Source of the DNA: Campylobacter sp.
GTDB taxonomy: Bacteria; Campylobacterota; Campylobacteria; Campylobacterales; Campylobacteraceae
NCBI GenBank assembly: GCA_022775765.1
Contig: JALFKC010000019.1
Location: 1-40,730, forward strand
Direction: 5' to 3'
DNA length: 40,730 bases
Position numbers and translations under genes: made by a program. The first letter of the stretch is position 1; each line of letters opens with the position of its first letter. Under the pieces are notes generated by a model. The model saw only the letters and a list, made by a program, of their open reading frames with translations, was not told the origin of the DNA and ran no database searches. This document shows positions 13,462 through 29,625 of the stretch, one piece after another.

Positions 13462-14762
13462 ATAACCATAAGTCATAAAATAGAGCTTGTGCCAAATAAT
13501 AAAGCAATCATACATTTTAAAAAGGCTTTTGGTTGTTCTTACTTAGCATATAACTGGGGACTTGCAAAATGGCAAGAATATTATAAACAAGGCATTAAAA
13601 AATCATATTTGGATTTAAAAAAAGAGTTTAATCATATTAAAAAAGATAAATTTCCTTTTGTCTATGAAGTAAGCAAATATGCTACGTAACAGCCGTTTTT
13701 GAATTTAAATTTAGCCTTTAATAAATTCTTTAAAGACTTAAAGCGTGGAATTGTAAGCTATCCAAAATTTAAAAAGAAAAAAGATAATTTTGGCTCTTAT
13801 TATATAGGTGGAGACCAAGTTATATTAAGTGATGTAAATAAAAATTCTAAAAAATTACTTAATCAAAATAGTAAAAAACAATATCTAAAAATTCCAAATT
13901 ACGGACTTGTAAAGATGAGAGAAAAACTTAGATTTAAAGGTAAAATTAACTCAGTAACAATTAGCCAAAAAGCTAATAAATTTTACGCTTCATTTTCAAT
14001 GCAAATATCAAAAGATGAATATAGTAAAACACATAAAATAACTATTAAAAATAATCAATCAGTAGGAATTGATTTAGGTATTAAAGAGTTTATTAGTCTG
14101 TCTAATGGCTTAGAAATAAAAGCACCAAAGCCACTAATAAGCTTAATAGATTTTTGATAAAAAGAGCTAGACAACTCTCTAAAAAACAACATCTAAAAAC
14201 CAAAGATGAAGCTTTTTAGAGAGTTAAAAAGTCAAAGAATTATCTAAAAGCAACTATTAGGCTAAACAAAATACATTAAAGAATTTCCAATATTAGAAAT
14301 GATTTTTTACATCTGTTATTGTAAGAAATTTTGATTACATAGGACTTGAAAACTTAAATACGCAAGGAGTGATGAAAAATCATAAATTAACCAAAAGCTT
14401 AGCCGATTTAAGCTTTTATGAGTTTTACAGACAGCTTGAGTATAAAGCAAAATATCAAGAAAAAGAAATTTATAGAGTAAGTAAATTTTATCCAAGCTCT
14501 AAAATTATGTTATAATTGCGGAAGCATAAAACAAGATTTAACTTTGAAAGATAGAGTGTATAAATGTAATAGTTGTGGAAACATCATAAATAGAGATATT
14601 AACGCAAGTATTAATTTATATAAATTTGTAAATAAATCAGTAGGATTAGTTCAATCCGAATTTACGCCTATGGACTTGACGGCAATGCAACAAGATTTAG
14701 CAATAAATCAAATTGCAACCAGCAAGGCTGAAATAAGAATACAACAGAAATCCTATTTATAG
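13462..14762 (+). pseudogene. tnpB: Decayed TnpB (IS607-associated RNA-guided nuclease)
   Basis: Reconstruction starts at 13462, where the expected ATG reads ATA. It then gives ITISHKIELVPNNKAIIHFKKAFG. A stop follows at YAT*QPFLNLN (CAA to TAA). An open stretch comes next with SVGIDLGIKEF, the first RuvC motif. After 14157 several frameshifts break the middle, including the YIGLENLNTQG region with the second catalytic residue. The end has the four-cysteine zinc finger (CYNCGS, CNSCGN) and the third RuvC motif NRDINASINL. TnpB cleaves DNA guided by an RNA from the element end. All three RuvC motifs can still be read, but not in one frame. Confidence 0.88.
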
Positions 14763-17051: not shown

Positions 17052-18200
17052 ATGGATTACTCGTTAGATAAGATTGGTACTAGACTTGATGAGTTGGCTA
17101 AACTTAAAAAAATGCACTCTGATGGCTCTATAGTAGCTTTACTTGAAAAAAATGGCTTTAGTAGGCGTGATTTTCTTAAGTGGTCAGCTTCTATAGCTGT
17201 GCTTCTTGGGCTTCCAGCTTCATTTGCACCGATAGTTGCAAAAGCGGCTGAATTAAGTGATAGACTTCCTGTGATTTGGCTTCATATGGCTGAATGCACG
17301 GGTTGTAGTGAGAGTTTGCTAAGAAGCGACACGCCAACGATTGATAGCTTGATATTTGATTATATAAGTTTAGAATATCACGAAACTATTATGGCAGCAA
17401 GCGGATGGCAAGCCGAAGAAAACCTTGAAAACGCTATAGAAAAATATAAAGGTAAATATATTTTGATGGTTGAGGGTGGAATTCCAAAGGGTAGTAGTGA
17501 GTTTTTCTTAACTGTTGGACCGCACGGCAAGACAGGTCAAAAACACTGCGAGGACGCAGCAAAAGACGCTCTTGCTATATTTGCCATAGGAACCTGTTCG
17601 AGTTTTGGTGGTGTTCAAGCAGCCTATCCAAATCCTACAAACGCTCAACCACTAAGCAAAATCACAAATAAACCAGTCATAAATGTCCCAGGATGCCCAC
17701 CTAGCGAGAAAAATATCGTAGGAAATGTTATCCATTTTATACTCTTTGGCACACTTCCTGCACTTGATAATTATAACCGTCCAAAATGGGCTTATGGACT
17801 TAGAATTCACGATCTTTGCGAAAGAAGAGGGCATTTTGATGCGGGTGAGTTTGTTCAACACTTTGGCGATGAGGGGGCAAAAAATGGATTTTGTCTTTAT
17901 AAAGTAGGTTGCAAGGGTCCTTATACCTTTAATAACTGCTCAAGAGAGAGATTTAACTCACACACTTCGTGGCCAATCCAAGCAGGACACGGCTGTATAG
18001 GCTGTAGCGAGCCTGATTTTTGGGATAATATGGGGCCATTTGAAGAGCCTTTGGCTGATAGACTTTATCACAGCACATTTGGCGGGCTTGGTTCAGACGC
18101 AACAGCCGATAAAATCGGCATAGGTGTGCTAGCTCTAACAGGTTTAGCAATAGCCACTCACGCAACAATAGCAAGTATAAAGAAAAATAAGGAGTGTTAA
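17052..18200 (+). CDS. hydA: [NiFe] uptake hydrogenase small subunit
   Basis: The 382-residue precursor carries a long twin-arginine signal (SRRDFLK at 37-43, hydrophobic core to about 63, cleavage probably after AKA near 65). It is exported folded together with HydB. Cysteines for the proximal cluster are in ECTGCSES (C82, C85), GTCSSFGG and PGCPPSE. Medial and distal ligands follow in RIHDLCERRGH, VGCKGPYTFNNC and GHGCIGCSEPDFW. A C-terminal membrane helix (IGVLALTGLAIATHATIA) anchors the enzyme facing the periplasm. It is the first gene of the operon, with AAGGAG ahead of its ATG, and hydB starts 2 bp after its stop. Confidence 0.96.
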   Translation: MDYSLDKIGTRLDELAKLKKMHSDGSIVALLEKNGFSRRDFLKWSASIAVLLGLPASFAPIVAKAAELSDRLPVIWLHMAECTGCSESLLRSDTPTIDSLIFDYISLEYHETIMAASGWQAEENLENAIEKYKGKYILMVEGGIPKGSSEFFLTVGPHGKTGQKHCEDAAKDALAIFAIGTCSSFGGVQAAYPNPTNAQPLSKITNKPVINVPGCPPSEKNIVGNVIHFILFGTLPALDNYNRPKWAYGLRIHDLCERRGHFDAGEFVQHFGDEGAKNGFCLYKVGCKGPYTFNNCSRERFNSHTSWPIQAGHGCIGCSEPDFWDNMGPFEEPLADRLYHSTFGGLGSDATADKIGIGVLALTGLAIATHATIASIKKNKEC

Positions 18201-18202
18201 GT

Positions 18203-19915
18203 ATGTCTCAAAGAATTGTTATAGATCCAATTACCCGTATAGAGGGACATTTAAGAATCGAAGTAGTAGTTGATGAAGATAATGTAGTAAAAGAGGCCTA
18301 TAGTGGCTCAACACTGTGGAGAGGGCTTGAAACCATCATAAAAGGGCGTGATCCTAGAGACGCTGGATTTTTTATGCAAAGAATTTGTGGAGTTTGTACC
18401 TATTCTCACTACAAAGCTGGAACTATGGCGGTTGAAAATGCTCTTGGTATAAATCCACCACTAAACGCGGTTTTGACTAGAACGCTTATGAGTTCAGCTC
18501 TATTTTTGCACGATCACGCAGTGCATTTTTATCAACTTCACGCACTTGATTTTGTAGATATTTTAAGTGCACTTGAAGCTGATGTTTTCAAAGCTCAAGA
18601 TGAAGCATTTAAATGGTGCGATACACCATACGCGTGCGGGGCAGATCACCTAAAAGAGGTCAAAGAAAGGGTGGCTAAATTTGCCGCAAAAGGAAGCCTT
18701 GGGCCGTTTGCAAATGCGTATTGGGGACATTCAACTTACAAATTTACCCCAGAACAAAACTTAATCGCTCTTAGCCACTACCTAGAGTGTTTAAGAGTTC
18801 AAAGAGTTGTCGCTCAAATGATGGCGATATTTGGTTCTAAAAACCCTCACCCACAAAGTCTAACTGTTGGCGGAGTAACTTGTGTGATGGATATTTTAAG
18901 CCCAACAAGACTAGCTGAATACCTTACTAAACTGCAAGAAGTTGGCGAGTTTATCAATAGGGCTTACTATGCAGACCTTGTGATGGCAGGCAGAGCCTAT
19001 GCAAGTGAGCCAAGCGTAGTAAATGATGTGGGAGTGGCAAATTTATTCACTTTCAAAGAGTTTCAAATCTCTAAAAATGACTGGCTATTTGATAGCGGTA
19101 TTATCCTAAATGGCGATCTCTCAAAAGTTTATGATATCGATGAGAGCAAAATCACTGAAGAGGCTACCCACTCATGGTATAAAAATGACGCACCACTTCA
19201 TCCATATGATGGCGAGCAAGAGCCAAACTATACAGGCTTTAAAGATGAAATGACCTTAAATGCCAAAGGCGAGATGGAAAATACTAAAGTATTTGACACA
19301 GCTGGCAAATATAGCTGGATAAAATCCCCACGCTATGATGGTATGCCTATGCAAGTTGGCCCACTAGCTAATATCGTAGTAAACTACGCAAAAGGCAATA
19401 AATTTGTAGTCCCTGTAGTGGATAAATTCCTACACGACACAGGTCTTCCACTTACTGCGGTTCTTTCGACTCTAGGTAGAACTGCTTGTAGGATGATTGA
19501 GGCTAAGATAGTAGCTGACAATACCATAATCGCATTTAATAACCTAGTAGAAAATATCAAAAGTGGTGACACTGAAACTTGTGCCAAATACTCAATTGAC
19601 AAAAACAAAGAATATAAAGGCCGCTATATAGGCAATGTTCCTAGAGGAACTCTAAGCCACTGGTGTAGGATAAAAGATGGTGTGATACAAAATTGGCAAG
19701 CAGTTGTCCCATCCACTTGGAACGCTTCACCAAAAGACGAAAAAGGACAGATGGGAAGCTATGAAGCGTGCTTGATAGGGGTTAAGATAGCTGATCTTAC
19801 TCAACCTCTTGAAATTATACGCAAAATTCACTCATATGACCCTTGTATAGCGTGTGCGGTGCATGTGATGGATTATAAAGGCAACAAACTTGGTGAATAC
19901 AAGGTAAGTCTGTAG
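18203..19915 (+). CDS. hydB: [NiFe] uptake hydrogenase large subunit
   Basis: This 570-residue catalytic subunit splits H2 at a Ni-Fe centre. The N-terminal nickel ligands are in RICGVCTYSH and the C-terminal ones in DPCIACAVH. The tail after that His (VMDYKGNKLGEYKVSL) is the peptide removed by the HydD protease once nickel is in place. The ATG at 18203 is chosen because GGAG lies nine bases before it; an in-frame upstream TTG would overlap hydA. There is no signal peptide, as expected for a subunit that rides out with HydA. Confidence 0.96.
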   Translation: MSQRIVIDPITRIEGHLRIEVVVDEDNVVKEAYSGSTLWRGLETIIKGRDPRDAGFFMQRICGVCTYSHYKAGTMAVENALGINPPLNAVLTRTLMSSALFLHDHAVHFYQLHALDFVDILSALEADVFKAQDEAFKWCDTPYACGADHLKEVKERVAKFAAKGSLGPFANAYWGHSTYKFTPEQNLIALSHYLECLRVQRVVAQMMAIFGSKNPHPQSLTVGGVTCVMDILSPTRLAEYLTKLQEVGEFINRAYYADLVMAGRAYASEPSVVNDVGVANLFTFKEFQISKNDWLFDSGIILNGDLSKVYDIDESKITEEATHSWYKNDAPLHPYDGEQEPNYTGFKDEMTLNAKGEMENTKVFDTAGKYSWIKSPRYDGMPMQVGPLANIVVNYAKGNKFVVPVVDKFLHDTGLPLTAVLSTLGRTACRMIEAKIVADNTIIAFNNLVENIKSGDTETCAKYSIDKNKEYKGRYIGNVPRGTLSHWCRIKDGVIQNWQAVVPSTWNASPKDEKGQMGSYEACLIGVKIADLTQPLEIIRKIHSYDPCIACAVHVMDYKGNKLGEYKVSL

Positions 19916-19924
19916 GAGAGCAAA

Positions 19925-20605
19925 ATGCAAACAAAAAATTTAACCCCTAGGAAAGCTGAGTATGAGTTTAGCATAGGCTTTCGTGCAACCCACTGGATAA
20001 GAGCATTTTGTATATTTGCACTTATTATTAGTGGATACTATCTAGCTTATGTTTTTACTAGCCCAGAAGTTAGTAGTGAGCCAGTGCTATTTATGCAAGC
20101 AAAGTTTAGATTTGTGCATTTGGTAGCAGGCTTTATAATGATAGGAGCAATTATATTTAAAACTTATCTTTTTATTTTTGATAGCTTAAGCAAAAAAGAA
20201 AGAGTGAGTGTAAGTGACTTTTTTAGTCCAAAAGTATGGTGGGATCAGATCAAATACTATCTTTTTTTAGGCGATCACCCACACCTTAAAGGGGCTTATA
20301 ATCCACTTCAATTTATCGCATATATTCTTTTTTATGTAGTAGCGTTTTTTATCTGTCTAACAGGGCTTATTCTTTATATCCATGTATATCATCACGGACT
20401 TGGCGGAGTGCTTTATGAAGTTTTGAGACCTATAGAAATGCTTTTTGGTGGGCTTGCAAATGTTAGAGTGGTTCATCATATCTGTATGAATATCATTATG
20501 GTATTTATAGTAGCCCATGTTTATATGGCTGTGTTTAATGCTATAAAAGGCAAAGATGGTGCGATGGACGCTATTGTTAGCGGATATAAATTTCCAAAAG
20601 AGTAA
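19925..20605 (+). CDS. hydC: Hydrogenase cytochrome b subunit
   Basis: A 226-residue integral membrane protein with four to five hydrophobic segments. Candidate heme histidines are in RATHWIRAF (first helix), FVHLVAGF (second), and HHICMNIIMVFIVAHVYM (last). This is the Ni/Fe-hydrogenase 1 b-type cytochrome pattern. It takes electrons from the small subunit to menaquinone. It lies 9 bp after hydB and 3 bp before hydD. Confidence 0.94.
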   Translation: MQTKNLTPRKAEYEFSIGFRATHWIRAFCIFALIISGYYLAYVFTSPEVSSEPVLFMQAKFRFVHLVAGFIMIGAIIFKTYLFIFDSLSKKERVSVSDFFSPKVWWDQIKYYLFLGDHPHLKGAYNPLQFIAYILFYVVAFFICLTGLILYIHVYHHGLGGVLYEVLRPIEMLFGGLANVRVVHHICMNIIMVFIVAHVYMAVFNAIKGKDGAMDAIVSGYKFPKE

Positions 20606-20608
20606 AAA

Positions 20609-21148
20609 TTGAAATTTTTAGTTTTAGGTATTGGAAATGTGCTTCTTTCAGATGAAGGAACTGGCGTTCATCTATGCAATCTACTAAAAAACAACTACAA
20701 ATTCTCTCACTCTACAAACTCAATTGAGTTTGTAGATGGGGGAACTTTGGCTATGGCTTTAACGCCTATAATTGCAAAATTCGATCAAGTTTTGATGATT
20801 GATTGTATAGCGGCTGATGACGCAAAGATTGGAGATGTGTTTTTCTTTGATTTTGCAGATGTTCCACCAAAAATAAATTTTGGTGGTTCAGCCCACGAGA
20901 TGGAGATGCTTCAGACATTAGAGTTTATGGATATAGTAGGTGATAGACCCCCAACTATGGTGCTTGGAGTTGTTCCAAAACGCATAGTTCCTATGACTTG
21001 CAAGCTTAGTGATGAGCTTATAAGCTCATCGAGAATTATGGAAAAAAAGGCGATTTCATATATAAAATCACTCGGCTTTAGTGTAGAAAAAGTAGATGAT
21101 AAAAATATTCAAGAGATAGCAGATGAGTTTGAAAACGGTAGTCTTTAA
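20609..21148 (+). CDS. hydD: Hydrogenase maturation protease
   Basis: The 179-residue endopeptidase trims the HydB C-terminus. It starts with TTG at 20609, giving MKFLVLGIGNVLLSDEGTG. The GIGN motif and the acidic Glu17 are the family's nickel-sensing site. A second acidic ligand is in MIDCIAADD and the His ligand in SAHEMEM. It overlaps hydE by 26 bp. The TTG start has no strong ribosome site, so translation may be coupled to hydC. Confidence 0.93.
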   Translation: MKFLVLGIGNVLLSDEGTGVHLCNLLKNNYKFSHSTNSIEFVDGGTLAMALTPIIAKFDQVLMIDCIAADDAKIGDVFFFDFADVPPKINFGGSAHEMEMLQTLEFMDIVGDRPPTMVLGVVPKRIVPMTCKLSDELISSSRIMEKKAISYIKSLGFSVEKVDDKNIQEIADEFENGSL

Positions 21149-22601
21149 GTTTGAATATTTAAGTAGCAATGGCGTTTTGGAATACTTTTTAGGGTATTAT
21201 GCAAAGCGGTTTAATATGCAGTTTGCTATGCAAAAAAGTGGAAAAAATTTGAGTTTTTTTGTAAGCGGAAGTGAAGATGAGCTTTTGAAATTTAGCGATA
21301 ATGCGATGATAAATATTCCAAATTCTATCTTTTTATCACGTAGTAGTGTTGAAATTTATGAAGATGAGCTTCCAAACAGCTCATATCAAATCTCTAATCT
21401 TAAGTTTAATAATATCACCCCAAGCGTTGTCAAATCATATATAAAAAAGGATTTTGTAGAGAATGAATTTGGTATTTTGAGTGAAATTTGCATTTTAAAA
21501 CAAGATGAAAATTTAGGCGAAAGCTTGCTTAATATTACCAAAGAAAATTTCAGCAAAACTTTGGATGAGTTAAAACTCAAGCTTCTTCACAACCAGCCAG
21601 TTAGCCTAAAATGTGGTGATAGTAGTTTAAAGTTAGTAGCGAGTATTGATTTTAAGGCCAGCTATCTTATGCCAACTAGTGCGTTAAATATCTCTAAAAT
21701 TTTCGTCGCAAAAGATGAAGAGCTTATTATTTTAAATAGCTATGAAAAGCCTATTTTAAACTTAAGAATTAGTAATGTCTTTAGAAAAAATAGCACCGAA
21801 ATTCCAACATATTTTGATATCAAAATGGCAGATGATCTATTTTTGTTCGCACTTTTAAACTCACTAAAAGATGATGGAATTGATTTTGTGAGCATATTTT
21901 CAGATTGCAAAGAAGAGACAAAAGTGAGCGTTTTAAAAGATAGAGTTTTGATTTTAAAAAGTGATAAATTCAATCAAATTTTATATCCACAAGCTCAAAA
22001 ACCAAAAGATTATCTGCAAATTTCACTAAATAAAAAAGGTGATGATGAGATTTCACTTATTCATATAGAGAGCAAAATTCCACTTCTAAAGCTTAGAATA
22101 CCTTTGAGTTTTGATGAAATTTATGCCGAGATAAAATCTGATGAAGTTGGCTCAAAACTGCTTGATAACTTTACAAAAGAGTTTGAGCTTGCACGTGGCG
22201 AACTAAAGCAAGACAATAGCTTTTGTGCACTTTTTGATTTAATTAGCAAAGTGATTTTTGATAAAGACGCTAATTATTTGCTAGAGTGTGCCAAAAACAG
22301 CCTTGCTTCAAAAGGGCCTTTGGTGGATTTTAAAGGTGGCTTTGACGAGCCATTTAATATCTCAAAAACTCTAAGAAGTGCGATGAGTTATAAATTAGCT
22401 GGAGTTGATGACAACACCTTAAGTCTTGGGTGTATAGAGTCTTTAGCATACTTTTTAACTGGCGAAATCGCCAAAATTGAAGCTAGTTTTAAAGAGATCT
22501 ATATAGATGGCGATTTGCTTGAAAATCAAAGATTTATAGGTGCTTTTTTAGAGCTGATAGATAAGAAATTCCAAATCAAACTTCCTTATGAAAACATATA
22601 A
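21123..22601 (+). CDS. hydE: Epsilonproteobacterial hydrogenase accessory protein HydE
   Basis: The 492-residue protein is recognised by its place after hydD and its resemblance to Helicobacter HydE, which is needed for hydrogenase activity. Its biochemical role is unknown to me. The last 90 residues (SLGCIESLAYFLTGEIAKIEASF and IYIDGDLLENQRFIGAFLELI) parallel the end of the HypF Kae1-like domain next door (VILGGGVFANRALLTKCLRLF), but the glycine-rich nucleotide motif is degraded. It may be a diverged HypF-domain paralogue. The ATG overlaps hydD by 26 bp and the stop overlaps hypF by 14 bp. It is not the radical-SAM HydE of [FeFe] hydrogenases: no CxxxCxxC is seen. Confidence 0.8.
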   Translation: MSLKTVVFKFEYLSSNGVLEYFLGYYAKRFNMQFAMQKSGKNLSFFVSGSEDELLKFSDNAMINIPNSIFLSRSSVEIYEDELPNSSYQISNLKFNNITPSVVKSYIKKDFVENEFGILSEICILKQDENLGESLLNITKENFSKTLDELKLKLLHNQPVSLKCGDSSLKLVASIDFKASYLMPTSALNISKIFVAKDEELIILNSYEKPILNLRISNVFRKNSTEIPTYFDIKMADDLFLFALLNSLKDDGIDFVSIFSDCKEETKVSVLKDRVLILKSDKFNQILYPQAQKPKDYLQISLNKKGDDEISLIHIESKIPLLKLRIPLSFDEIYAEIKSDEVGSKLLDNFTKEFELARGELKQDNSFCALFDLISKVIFDKDANYLLECAKNSLASKGPLVDFKGGFDEPFNISKTLRSAMSYKLAGVDDNTLSLGCIESLAYFLTGEIAKIEASFKEIYIDGDLLENQRFIGAFLELIDKKFQIKLPYENI

Positions 22602-24799: not shown

Positions 24800-25213
24800 A
24801 TGAAAGATGATGTTGTAAGATTTAGTGTTTCCTTGCCAGCAGTTTTAATGCAAACTTTGGATCAAAAAGTTGAGGAAAAATCCTCTACTAGAAGCGAATT
24901 TATAAGAGATCTTATTCGTCAAAAGATAGTTGATGATAAGTGGAATGGCGATGAAGATGGGCTTATAGGAGTTTTGAGTGCTGTTTATGATCACCATCAA
25001 AATGATCTTGTGAGTAAAAAAATGACACTCGAACACGGTGCAAATATAGATATAATTTGCACCACCCATATTCATATTGATCACACAAACTGTCTTGAAA
25101 TTTCGGTTTTAAAAGGCAATAACAATTTAATCAAAGCGTTTTATGACAAAATTTCAGGGTTAAAAGGCATAAAATTTGCCGAACTTTCAAAAATAGCAAT
25201 ACCAAATAAATAA
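24800..25213 (+). CDS. nikR: Nickel-responsive regulator NikR
   Basis: The 137-residue protein has an N-terminal ribbon-helix-helix (VVRFSVSLPAVLMQTLDQKV, then RSEFIRDLIRQ). A C-terminal ACT-like nickel domain follows. The square-planar nickel ligands of the family align as H79, H90, H92 and C98 (the last three in THIHIDHTNCLE). With nickel bound it should bind DNA and control nickel uptake or use. It sits inside the hydrogenase operon between hypF and hypB. That suggests the regulator is made together with the nickel enzyme and may autoregulate the operon. No matched operator could be fixed upstream of hydA. Confidence 0.92.
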   Translation: MKDDVVRFSVSLPAVLMQTLDQKVEEKSSTRSEFIRDLIRQKIVDDKWNGDEDGLIGVLSAVYDHHQNDLVSKKMTLEHGANIDIICTTHIHIDHTNCLEISVLKGNNNLIKAFYDKISGLKGIKFAELSKIAIPNK

Positions 25214-25223
25214 AGGAGAAAAT

Positions 25224-25964
25224 ATGTGTAAAGATTGCGGTTGCAGTATGGGCAATGAGAGCCACGAACATAGTCACGCTCACTCACATAACCACGCCCA
25301 TCCAAGCTTAAATGAGACAAAAACAGTAGAAGTTATAACTAAAATTCTATCCAAAAACGACGAAGAAGCAGCTCACAATAACGCTCATCTAAATGAAGCG
25401 GGGGTGTTTTGTATAAATTTAATGAGTAGCCCAGGAAGTGGCAAAACCTCATTATTAGAAAGAACAATCAAAGAAAGTGGCTACAAAATAGGAGTAGTTG
25501 AGGGCGATCTTGAGACTAATAAAGACGCCGATCGTATTATCAAAGCGGGTGCGAAAGCTCATCAAATCTCAACAGGACAAACTTGCCATTTAGACGCATT
25601 TATGGTGCACGAAGGACTTCATCATCTGCCGCTAAAAGAGCTTGATATAGTTTTTATAGAAAATGTTGGCAACCTAGTGTGTCCGGCTAGCTACAGCCTT
25701 GGTGCTCACCTTGACACGGTGCTTTTAAGTGTGCCAGAAGGTAGCGATAAAGTAGCAAAATATCCGGTAATGTTTAGAAAAGCTGATGTGCTTATTATCA
25801 CCAAAATTTCGCTTATAGAGCATTTTGATTTTAATATTGAAGAGGTCAAAAAAGAGGCTAAAAAGCTCAATCCAAAAGTTGATATTATCACCCTTGATAG
25901 CCTAACAGGCGAAGGCTTTGATAAGTGGCTTAAATATCTTAAACTCAAAAAGGAGTTAAGCTAA
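25224..25964 (+). CDS. hypB: Hydrogenase nickel incorporation GTPase HypB
   Basis: The 246-residue SIMIBI GTPase loads nickel into HydB with HypA. The N-terminus has a CxxCGC metal motif (residues 2-7) and a His-rich stretch (14-26) for nickel storage or delivery. The P-loop SSPGSGKT is at 68-75. The dimer-interface metal site is C121, H122 and C153. The guanine-specificity motif usually reads (N/T)KxD but is T193-K-I-S196 here, so the base-contacting Asp is replaced. It follows nikR by 10 bp with AAAGGAG, and its stop overlaps the hypC ATG by 1 bp. Confidence 0.94.
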   Translation: MCKDCGCSMGNESHEHSHAHSHNHAHPSLNETKTVEVITKILSKNDEEAAHNNAHLNEAGVFCINLMSSPGSGKTSLLERTIKESGYKIGVVEGDLETNKDADRIIKAGAKAHQISTGQTCHLDAFMVHEGLHHLPLKELDIVFIENVGNLVCPASYSLGAHLDTVLLSVPEGSDKVAKYPVMFRKADVLIITKISLIEHFDFNIEEVKKEAKKLNPKVDIITLDSLTGEGFDKWLKYLKLKKELS

Positions 25965-26245
25965 TGTGTCTTAGCATACCATCAAAAATCACTAACATTG
26001 ATGAGAATAATTTCGCTACCGTGGATACGCTAGGCGTTAGCCGTGGAGTTAGCTTAGATTTGATTAGCGAGCCTTTGAAAGTAGGGGATTATGTGCTTAT
26101 TCATGTAGGCTTTGCAATGGAAAAAATAGATACCAAATCCGCCCTTGAAAGTTTAGAAATTTATAAGCAGATCGCCAAAGAGATGGAGAGTGGCGAGATA
26201 CCACCAAACGAAGGCGATTTGGGACTATCGGCTATGAAAGAATAA
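25964..26245 (+). CDS. hypC: Hydrogenase assembly chaperone HypC
   Basis: The 93-residue chaperone begins MCLSIPSK; the Cys after the initiator Met is the essential residue that holds the Fe(CN)2CO unit. The conserved His is in VLIHVGFAMEKID. It partners HypD in building the iron part of the active site and then HydB. TAATG-type overlap with hypB; hypD follows 4 bp after. Confidence 0.95.
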   Translation: MCLSIPSKITNIDENNFATVDTLGVSRGVSLDLISEPLKVGDYVLIHVGFAMEKIDTKSALESLEIYKQIAKEMESGEIPPNEGDLGLSAMKE

Positions 26246-26249
26246 TTTG

Positions 26250-27353
26250 ATGGATCTTATAAATGATTTTAGAGACAAAGAGTATGTTTTAGGCCTAGCT
26301 AGGCTTATCAATAAAAGCGTAGTTAAACCCATAAATATAATGGAAATTTGTGGCGGTCACACGCACTCTATTATGAAATTTGGGTTACCCGATCTACTCG
26401 ATAAAAAGATAAATTTCATCCACGGACCAGGATGCCCTGTATGCGTAATGCCAATGGAGCGAATCGATGAGGCTATAGAGTTAGCAAACACTGATGGCGT
26501 AATACTTTGCACGCTTGCGGATATGATCCGCATACCAGGAAGCAATAAACAAACTCTAGCTAAGGCTAGGGCTAGTGGCAAGGATATAAGAGCTCTTTAT
26601 ACGCCACTTGACGCACTCAAAATCGCCACTGAAAATCCGCAAAAAAAGGTAGTATTTTTTGCCATAGGGTTTGAAACTACAACGCCAATGACCTGTGTTT
26701 TGATTCAAAAAGCACTAGAACTAAAACTAACAAATCTATTTTTTCATATTAATCATGTCACGGTTCCAAATACCATAAAAGCTCTACTTGATGATAAAGA
26801 TAATCAAATAGACGCATTTTTAGCCCCATCTCATGTTAGTGTAATTACAGGTTATGAAGTTTATAAAAATCTAGCCAAAATCTATCACAAACCCTTTGCA
26901 GTGAGTGGTTTTGAACCAGTTGATATACTTGATAGCATTAGAGATTTAATCACCCAGCACCAAAATGGCTCATATGAAGTTTTTAATGAATATAGCAGAG
27001 TTGTTAGCAAAAATGGCAACCAAAAGGCCAAAGAGCTGATAGATAAATTCTTAACCCCATCAAGCTTTAAATGGCGTGGGCTTGGTGAAATCCCAAATAG
27101 CGGATATGAGCTAAAAAGCGAGTTTGATTTTATAAATGCCAAAAAAGTCTTTAAGCTCAATATCGCCCCAGCCAAAGAAAACAGAGCCTGTATTTGCGGT
27201 GAAATTCTAAGGGGCAGGGCAAAGCCATATGAGTGCAAGGTTTTTGGCAAGGTTTGTAATCCACAAAACCCAGTAGGATCTTGTATGGTCTCAAGCGAAG
27301 GGGCTTGTGCGGCGTATTATAGGTATAAAAAATTAGATGAGCTATGTAAATAA
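26250..27353 (+). CDS. hypD: Hydrogenase iron-ligand assembly protein HypD
   Basis: The 367-residue protein is the scaffold for the Fe(CN)2CO group. Conserved blocks are MEICGGHTHSIMKFGL (Cys and His at the Fe site), HGPGCPVCVMP, a GFETTTP block and the 4Fe-4S cysteines near the C-terminus (CICGEILRGRAKPYEC, VCNPQNPVGSCMVSSEGAC). I prefer the ATG at 26250 over the TTG one codon upstream. Its end overlaps the DUF3137 gene by 17 bp. Confidence 0.95.
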   Translation: MDLINDFRDKEYVLGLARLINKSVVKPINIMEICGGHTHSIMKFGLPDLLDKKINFIHGPGCPVCVMPMERIDEAIELANTDGVILCTLADMIRIPGSNKQTLAKARASGKDIRALYTPLDALKIATENPQKKVVFFAIGFETTTPMTCVLIQKALELKLTNLFFHINHVTVPNTIKALLDDKDNQIDAFLAPSHVSVITGYEVYKNLAKIYHKPFAVSGFEPVDILDSIRDLITQHQNGSYEVFNEYSRVVSKNGNQKAKELIDKFLTPSSFKWRGLGEIPNSGYELKSEFDFINAKKVFKLNIAPAKENRACICGEILRGRAKPYECKVFGKVCNPQNPVGSCMVSSEGACAAYYRYKKLDELCK

Positions 27354-28284
27354 TTTAGAACTTGAGCGACAAAAATTCCTAAAACAGGCTATTTGGACAC
27401 CAGAGTTTTATTTTATAATTTTTTTGATTGTTTTGTTTTTATCTATTTTAATTGTGAATTTCTTATATGATATGTTTCCATCTTTAAGATTTACATCAAG
27501 ATCTAAACTTGATATGTATACATTTACATTTATAGCGGTTTTTGGTTTACTTTTTGTTTTCGTTAATCTTTTTGTGATTGATTTTAAAGAGAAAAAACTT
27601 GAATTTGCAAATTTTATTAAAGCAAAAATCATATCTTCAATGCTTGATCCATCCTACAAATATGACCCAAAAGCGGGACTTGGTAGCAAATTTATCAATA
27701 ACACTGGAATTTATGCTAGTGCATTTTATATCACGCACGATTTGATAATGGGCATTTATAACGGCGTGAGATTTATAGTTGAAACTTTCAAAGAAGAAAG
27801 AGATTATTCAAATGATACGGTTGGCAAACTAATAAACCTTGCATATCAAGCCAAATACGAACTCTCTAAATTTAACGGCTTGATATCGGGGATAAAATCA
27901 GATAAAAATTTCACTTCAAAAACGATAGTGGTGGATAGAGCGTTTAATACCAAAATAGACGGCAAAGTTGAGATTTTAGGTAACACTACTTTTAATGATG
28001 AATTTAGAGTTTTTAGTGATAATCCAGCCGAGACAAGGTATTTGTTAAGTTTTGTAGATATAGAAAAGATACTTAAATTTCAAAGCGAGATAGCCCTTGG
28101 CAAGGCGAGTTTTGCGTTTATAGATGGTAAATTTTATCTATTTTTAAACGGACTACATTTTAACTATGAACCATCTCTAACTCTAGTTATAAACCCAAAA
28201 AAAATTGAAAATTTTGTAAATAATATCAACAAAACTATAGCTTATATTGACTTTTTTAAAGATACAAAGGATAAAAATGGATAA
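27337..28284 (+). CDS. DUF3137-family membrane protein inside the hyp gene set
   Basis: The 315-residue protein has two membrane helices (about 25-45 and 62-81). A soluble part of about 230 residues follows. The region DEFRVFSDNPAETRYLLS, after TTFN, and the last FEP-like strands match the DUF3137 pattern as I recall it. No enzyme motif or cysteine cluster is seen, and the function is unknown. Its ATG lies inside the end of hypD (17 bp overlap) and its stop overlaps hypE by 8 bp, so it is translated as part of the maturation operon. In the C. jejuni order I know, hypD is followed directly by hypE. A link to hydrogenase membrane assembly is only a guess from context. Confidence 0.75.
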   Translation: MSYVNNLELERQKFLKQAIWTPEFYFIIFLIVLFLSILIVNFLYDMFPSLRFTSRSKLDMYTFTFIAVFGLLFVFVNLFVIDFKEKKLEFANFIKAKIISSMLDPSYKYDPKAGLGSKFINNTGIYASAFYITHDLIMGIYNGVRFIVETFKEERDYSNDTVGKLINLAYQAKYELSKFNGLISGIKSDKNFTSKTIVVDRAFNTKIDGKVEILGNTTFNDEFRVFSDNPAETRYLLSFVDIEKILKFQSEIALGKASFAFIDGKFYLFLNGLHFNYEPSLTLVINPKKIENFVNNINKTIAYIDFFKDTKDKNG

Positions 28285-29281
28285 GATACTTTTAAGCCAC
28301 GGTGGTGGCGGACAAGAGATGAATGAGCTGATAAATGAGACGATCTTTAAGGCTTTTGATAATGAAATTCTAAGGCTTACAAATGATTCCGCAATTTTAA
28401 AAATGAGTGAATTTGATAGTAGCGAGATGGCTTTTACGACTGATTCGTTTGTAGTTAAGCCACTATTTTTCCCAGGTGGAGATATCGGTAAAATCGCAGT
28501 TTGTGGGACGATAAATGACCTAGCAATGGTTGGAGCTGAGGCTAGATATTTGAGTTGTGCTTTGCTAATTGAAGAGGGTTTTAGTCTAAATGAGCTTAAG
28601 ATTATATTAAGCTCTATGGCCAAAGAGTGTGCTAAAAATGGTGTAAAAATAGTCTGTGGCGATACAAAAGTGCTTCCAAAAGGTGGATGCGATGGGCTCT
28701 TTATCAATACAAGTGGAATTGGCAAGATTGTAGCTAGTGGAATTTGCACAAGCTCGCTAAAAGTGGGGTCTAAGATTTTGTTAAGTGGCGATATTGCAAG
28801 ACACGGAAGCGTAGTGATGGCTTTAAGAGATGAGTTTGCACTAAGTAGTGAGCTACAAAGTGACTGCAAAAGCCTAAAAAGCGTAGTTTTAGAGCTAATA
28901 AACAGCGGAATAAAGCCACTATGCCTAAGAGACGCAACTCGTGGTGGAATTAGTGCGGTGCTAAACGAATGGGCGAATTTTAGTGGCTTTGAGATAGCTT
29001 TGCAAGAAGAAAAGATAAAAATCAGCGATGAAGTGATGGGAATATGTGAGCTTTTGGGCTTTGAGCCATATGAACTAGCAAACGAAGGGACTTTCGTGCT
29101 TGCTATAGAGCCAAAAGATGAAGAAAAGGCTTTAGAGATTTTAAGAAGCTTTGATAAAAATGCAAGTTGTATCGGCGAGATAGTTAGTGATAAAAGCACG
29201 GTTGTTACTATCACCAACCCATACGGTGCAAGTAGAGTTTTAATGCCACCAAGAGGCGAACTACTTCCAAGGATCTGCTAA
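28277..29281 (+). CDS. hypE: Hydrogenase maturation protein HypE
   Basis: The 334-residue PurM-like enzyme dehydrates the thiocarbamoyl group on its C-terminal Cys to thiocyanate, giving cyanide for the iron centre. It starts MDKILLSHGGGGQEMNELI and ends with the required LLPRIC tail. The ATP-binding block is CGTINDLAMVGAEA. The ATG at 28277 is chosen because an upstream TTG would add residues that match no family member. The stop overlaps the hypA ATG by 1 bp. Confidence 0.96.
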   Translation: MDKILLSHGGGGQEMNELINETIFKAFDNEILRLTNDSAILKMSEFDSSEMAFTTDSFVVKPLFFPGGDIGKIAVCGTINDLAMVGAEARYLSCALLIEEGFSLNELKIILSSMAKECAKNGVKIVCGDTKVLPKGGCDGLFINTSGIGKIVASGICTSSLKVGSKILLSGDIARHGSVVMALRDEFALSSELQSDCKSLKSVVLELINSGIKPLCLRDATRGGISAVLNEWANFSGFEIALQEEKIKISDEVMGICELLGFEPYELANEGTFVLAIEPKDEEKALEILRSFDKNASCIGEIVSDKSTVVTITNPYGASRVLMPPRGELLPRIC

Positions 29282-29625
29282 TGCACGAGTTTAGTTTAGT
29301 AGCAAATATTATAGAACTTAGCGAAGAAAACGCTAAGAAAAATGGAGCATCAAAAGTCGATGAGATAGTCATAAAAGTTGGCAAGTTAAGCGGTGTTGAG
29401 CCACATTATCTTGAGAGTGCATTTGAGTTTTACCGCTTAAATAGCCCACTTTGCAAGGACGCAAAACTTAGCATAAATCTGCAAAATATAGTCGTTGAAT
29501 GTAAGGAATGTGGGGCAAAATCCACACTTTTGCAAAATGAGTTTTTATGTCCCAAATGCTCTTCAAGCAACCTTGAAGTGATTGACGGCGAAGATATGTA
29601 TTTGATGAGTTTGGTAATGAGCTAA
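29281..29625 (+). CDS. hypA: Hydrogenase nickel chaperone HypA
   Basis: The 114-residue protein starts MHEFSLV, whose His2 and Glu3 form the nickel site. A zinc-ribbon with two CxxC pairs (CKECG and CPKCSS) lies at about 74-96. It passes nickel to HydB with HypB. It is the last gene of the 12.6-kb operon. I see no strong hairpin-plus-T terminator after it, only A/T palindromes. Confidence 0.95.
   Translation: MHEFSLVANIIELSEENAKKNGASKVDEIVIKVGKLSGVEPHYLESAFEFYRLNSPLCKDAKLSINLQNIVVECKECGAKSTLLQNEFLCPKCSSSNLEVIDGEDMYLMSLVMS

Follow-up and report, generated by a model that had tools for sequence, protein, structure and literature searches.

A DUF3137 gene lodged between hypD and hypE of a Campylobacter hydrogenase cluster is probably a passenger from a LemA-linked family

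The stretch of DNA analysed here (the window, 40,730 nucleotides from Campylobacter sp.) carries a hydrogenase cluster with the gene order hydA-hydB-hydC-hydD, a 492-aa ORF, hypF, a nikR-like gene, hypB, hypC, hypD, a DUF3137 gene, hypE and hypA. The hydA-hydB-hydC-hydD genes (17052-21148) and hypF were named from sequence and position, and the other cluster genes by profile matches. Pfam or NCBIfam profiles confirmed HypB (25224-25964; PF02492), HypC (25964-26245; PF01455, E=6.1e-25), HypD (26247-27353; PF01924, E=2.4e-147, and TIGR00075), HypE (28277-29281, with an ATG start at 28277; TIGR02124, E=1.2e-126) and HypA (29281-29625; PF01155, E=3.3e-31), all encoded on the forward strand. The nikR-like nickel regulator gene (24800-25213, forward strand; PF08753, NF001884) lies between hypF and hypB; such a gene adjoins hypB in genome G002 too and lies about 0.3 kb before hypB in G005, and the G013 cluster is without one. 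The unclassified 492-aa ORF (21123-22601) between hydD and hypF gave no match in Pfam, NCBIfam or PHROGs; judged by its position it is probably HydE, and it is kept in G005 and G013 with 34-41% identity. About 3 kb upstream of hydA, we observed an IS605 OrfB-type transposase fragment (13699-14157; sub-threshold Pfam match).

The DUF3137 gene (27337-28284, forward strand) starts with ATG and encodes 315 aa. Its product matched PF11335 (DUF3137) over residues 178-306 (27868-28254, forward strand), covering profile positions 2-136 of 139 with E=1.5e-17 and 64.2 bits against a gathering cut-off of 26.1. This domain is predicted to be cytoplasmic, while residues 1-102 (27337-27642, forward strand) form a predicted two-helix membrane hairpin, judged by AlphaFold helices and hydrophobic stretches in the sequence. 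The gene overlaps hypD by 17 bp (27337-27353) and hypE by 8 bp (28277-28284), both on the forward strand; the ORF coordinates and the PF11335 match agree with the earlier note, which had described a DUF3137 gene embedded by these overlaps. An AAGGA motif stands upstream of the hypE ATG (28267-28271). By eye, the ribosome-binding context before the DUF3137 start is weak, with the nearest AGG about 13 nt off, which fits translational coupling without proving it. The GC content of the gene is 29%, compared with 38-40% in hypD and hypE. No convincing repeat scar was found at the insertion borders, and promoter and terminator scans gave results at chance level only. NCBIfam yielded no meaningful match for the protein, and because PADLOC and PHROGs gave no match, we set aside a role in defence or in a phage. 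In the literature searched, DUF3137 is scarcely named, apart from its listing in a Bacteroides iron-stimulon table.

We then surveyed the distribution of the hyp-linked gene. In a genus sample of 14 genomes, 12 of which had hypD, it was found at three hypD loci, those of the window genome (G000), G005 and G013, with 46-52% identity among the three copies. The arrangement, which the earlier note had described from one strain, is therefore not unique to that strain, and its carriers' copies form one clade; the spacing varies, however. In G013 the gene begins 3 nt after hypD and ends 9 nt before hypE, and in G005 it follows hypD by 9 nt, a TonB/ExbBD-like block separating it from hypE, which lies 5 kb away. 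The overlaps of 17 bp and 8 bp are thus specific to the window genome among the three carriers. The intact orthologues at the same site in the other two genomes (52% and 48% identity to the window protein) indicate that the ORF is not a chance one.

Conserved linkage with hyp genes was not found, the association being limited, among the genomes sampled, to the three carriers. The family survey (153 genomes) gave no further match above 41% identity to the hyp-linked copy. In the phylum survey, DUF3137 was present in 119 of 397 genomes; outside the genus, DUF3137 and HypD were both mapped in 88 genomes, none of which had them closer together than 9.9 kb, a count that leaves aside a few weak DUF3137 matches that could not be placed. 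A contig scan with the three hyp-linked proteins returned zero relatives. With a wider alignment, 10 loci were obtained; eight were C. showae orphans or had LemA adjoining DUF3137, and no hyp locus was recognised among the 10.

To place the carriers, ProS and HypD trees were compared, and the three carriers did not group together in either. In the HypD tree, G013 paired with G002 (99/98), in which hypD and hypE are adjacent without a DUF3137 gene. These results point to gain, loss or transfer of the gene. As the three carriers show no clear sister relationship, its link with hypD is either long-lasting or was transferred together with hypD.

These results bear on whether the protein is a lineage-specific accessory factor in maturation or assembly, one that holds HypD/HypE or the hydrogenase under maturation at the inner membrane and whose translation is coordinated with that of its partners. 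Such a role would account for the overlaps with hypD and hypE and for the same site in three genomes at 46-52% identity, and a predicted cytoplasmic domain on a membrane anchor would suit it, Hyp proteins being cytoplasmic. In G005 the gene even stays with hypD where hypE is 5 kb away, but the same separation from hypE also counts against the role. Moreover, nine of the 12 genus genomes with hypD lack the gene at that locus, among them G002, the closest HypD relative of carrier G013, and so do all the other hyp loci that were mapped. The DUF3137 protein is encoded in a common operon with HypA-F, but it has no domain in common with them and is not conserved with them. We therefore consider a maturation factor unlikely, a judgement to which the family's usual partner and the other genes found at the junction, both described below, contribute.

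We investigated the usual neighbourhood of the family. In all 62 genomes with positions compared, lemA lay upstream of DUF3137 at 0.9-1.05 kb. The window genome itself has a DUF3137 paralog (L029 743-1684) 2 bp downstream of lemA (listed at L029 1687-2253). The hyp-linked copy has no lemA directly upstream, hypD being there, and the genome's only lemA match is on contig C78. The lemA-DUF3137 pair also occurs in Myxococcaceae, Gastranaerophilales and alphaproteobacterial loci. Judged by gene neighbourhood, the normal partner of DUF3137 is LemA. Compared with the LemA-DUF3137 pair (PF04011 and PF11335), the hyp copy is alike in Pfam domain, length, two-helix plus alpha/beta layout and conserved residues, but it lacks a nearby lemA, is part of a metabolic operon, has diverged further and falls in an orphan clade. 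Right after lemA, G005 (L102 2855-7406) and G013 (L103 1432-5812) have three or four diverged DUF3137 genes in tandem. In some Campylobacterota, lemA-DUF3137 is followed by a third gene, which encodes a conserved membrane protein about 264 aa long (L082 1953-2744, L084 1967-2761, L085 668-1477).

To trace the origin of the hyp copies, we used a tree of 65 sequences. The three hyp copies formed one clade (100/100), nested in a clade of 18 orphans (99/99). The remaining orphans stand singly next to truA, ackA, mnmA or ribD in G004 and in genomes of the C. showae type; these neighbours were named partly by eye, truA by Pfam. The C. showae-type orphans resemble the hyp copy in belonging to the same subclade, lacking lemA and being single genes attached to housekeeping genes, and they differ in their sites, in having about 33-41% identity over the matched part and in that several are truncated. 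The orphan at truA overlaps its neighbour by 4 bp, indicating that orphans are tightly packed at other sites as well as in the hyp operon. Genome G067 keeps orphan DUF3137 copies, some of them truncated, yet it has no HypD.

The truncations (109-166 aa in several showae-type copies), together with the AT-rich, diverged sequence of the hyp copy, raise the question of whether the latter is non-functional baggage heading for decay. We consider this very improbable. The gene is intact and full-length in all three carriers, and its domain model is reasonably confident. Of 26 LemA-type conserved columns, defined as the same residue in at least 80% of LemA-linked members, the window copy retains 17, including E8, R11, K95, D135, G139, G181, F219, F223, Y235 and F261, and nine are altered, e.g. 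M242I and F277Y. Intactness in three carriers and retention of most family-conserved residues indicate that the gene has been maintained. Judged from sequence, a species-specific accessory role may still exist.

Next, the junctions between hyp genes were compared. The gap between hypD and hypE was at most 60 bp in 122 of the 143 family genomes in which both genes were found. Where an insert was present, its content differed, the three carriers having DUF3137. In G003 the insert is a PEMT/ICMT-like (phospholipid-methyltransferase-like) membrane methyltransferase gene with a 19-bp overlap with hypE, and in G087 (L098 2126-2617) it encodes a SAM methyltransferase. G111 has small ORFs (L096 2272-2851), one of them a PD-T4-3-like, defence-like fragment, and G117 (L099 1457-8207) has DUF1561 together with a specificity protein and a restriction enzyme of Type IIG. 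Other junctions were also occupied, with a GmrSD-type restriction protein between hypC and hypD in G003, Pyridox_ox_2 and YjbR genes at the same junction in G012, and a predicted membrane protein between hypE and hypA in G012 (inserted genes at L077 85-1794 and 2992-3489 in G003 and at L078 4352-5358 in G012). Because unrelated genes occur at these junctions, tight embedding between hyp genes is weak evidence for a hyp function. This is a caution against assigning function by operon position, as a tightly overlapped hyp-operon gene proves to be one of several unrelated passengers found there. Passengers have entered the hypD-hypE junction repeatedly, and the hyp junctions of Campylobacter-type genomes may be an insertion hotspot; no description of them as a landing site for cargo genes was found in the literature searched.

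The same comparison weighs on another explanation, in which the gene encodes an envelope protein that is no maturation factor and is kept in the hyp operon because it is needed under the same conditions, such as H2 respiration or nickel or oxygen limitation. The NikR-like gene in the same gene run, the intact state of the gene in three genomes and the TonB/ExbBD-type envelope genes adjoining it in G005 are consistent with such co-regulation. However, location alone tells little at a junction that also takes up unrelated genes, and the orphan relatives adjoin tRNA-modification and central-metabolism genes. Co-regulation of this kind is improbable in our assessment, slightly more so than a maturation role.

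To obtain a lead on the fold, we modelled the window protein with AlphaFold from a 12-sequence alignment (mean pLDDT 75.5). The model comprises helices at residues 2-46 and 54-102 (pLDDT about 66-84) followed by a C-terminal alpha/beta domain, in agreement with the two helices described in the earlier note. In a Foldseek search of the PDB with significance set at E<=0.001, this model had a single significant match, TtfA (6t84; E=3.8e-5, probability 1.00, TM 0.61 by target length), which involved the modelled alpha/beta domain. The model of a LemA-linked myxobacterial DUF3137 protein (L088 9830-10783) gave the same single match (E=1.3e-4, probability 1.00). For both, TM-scores were moderate (0.51-0.61 by target) and rmsd values were high (6.7 and 9.4). 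The two query sequences are about 22% identical, and their alignments have most other rows in common, so the two models are not fully independent. A hmmsearch of PDB sequences with two DUF3137 profiles did not recover 6t84 at E<=1 or E<=10. The modelled resemblance between DUF3137 and TtfA is thus probably a fold relation and not demonstrated homology.

TtfA (MSMEG_0736/Rv0383c), the trehalose monomycolate transport factor, serves the transporter MmpL3 as an accessory protein associated with the inner membrane, and an N-terminal helix is its anchor (PMC6593404). The TtfA structure has been described as an atypical fold (Ung et al. 2020, as cited in PMC7458404). TtfA is like the DUF3137 models in fold and in N-terminal membrane anchoring, but it has one membrane helix where DUF3137 is predicted to have two, and its partner is MmpL3 in mycolate producers, whereas there are no mycolates here. 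Inspection by eye of the loci read showed no RND gene next to lemA-DUF3137. DUF3137 gains two handles for testing its function, LemA as an almost constant neighbour and a fold resembling that of TtfA. If the TtfA link were true, a domain of unknown function present in many bacteria would be tied to a known essential accessory protein of mycobacterial lipid transport. The resemblance is a more interesting lead than the hyp location.

Taken together, the DUF3137 gene is probably a co-transcribed passenger in the hyp operon whose product has its own job as an envelope adaptor. The earlier note had left the choice between an assembly helper at the membrane and a passenger; the passenger is favoured by presence at only three of 12 hypD loci, the absence of close linkage in the 88 genomes outside the genus, the unrelated genes at the junction, the LemA linkage, the orphan clade and the HypD-less G067, and further by the exact overlaps not being kept and the low GC content, and a hydrogenase role found no support. 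A family member normally beside LemA at the inner membrane would have been duplicated away from lemA, and the resulting orphan line would have spread to single-gene sites in Campylobacter-type genomes, one copy ending up at the hypD-hypE junction of a few species. In that position it would be co-transcribed with the operon and, in the window genome, probably translated by coupling with hypD. Most probably the protein has its two N-terminal helices in the membrane and the TtfA-like domain on the cytoplasmic face, and is an inner-membrane-anchored adaptor that serves export or the upkeep of the envelope, a function its LemA-linked relatives may share; it would have no maturation role. A broader proposal is tentative and somewhat doubtful, namely that DUF3137 proteins are distant TtfA relatives and LemA-partnered adaptors in envelope transport or homeostasis, that the hyp copy was perhaps recruited to a membrane-bound respiratory complex in a few Campylobacter, and that hyp junctions are a landing site for genes including restriction systems. 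What is of interest at this locus is mainly that the family's context is corrected to LemA, that its fold gives a lead to TtfA and that hyp junctions take up foreign genes.

Finally, long insertions with a high content of Asn, Lys and Phe were seen in HypF and HypE of G005 (L024 2664-6038 and L100 6520-7692), and the hypF ORF is 1124 aa long in G005 compared with 735 aa in the window.
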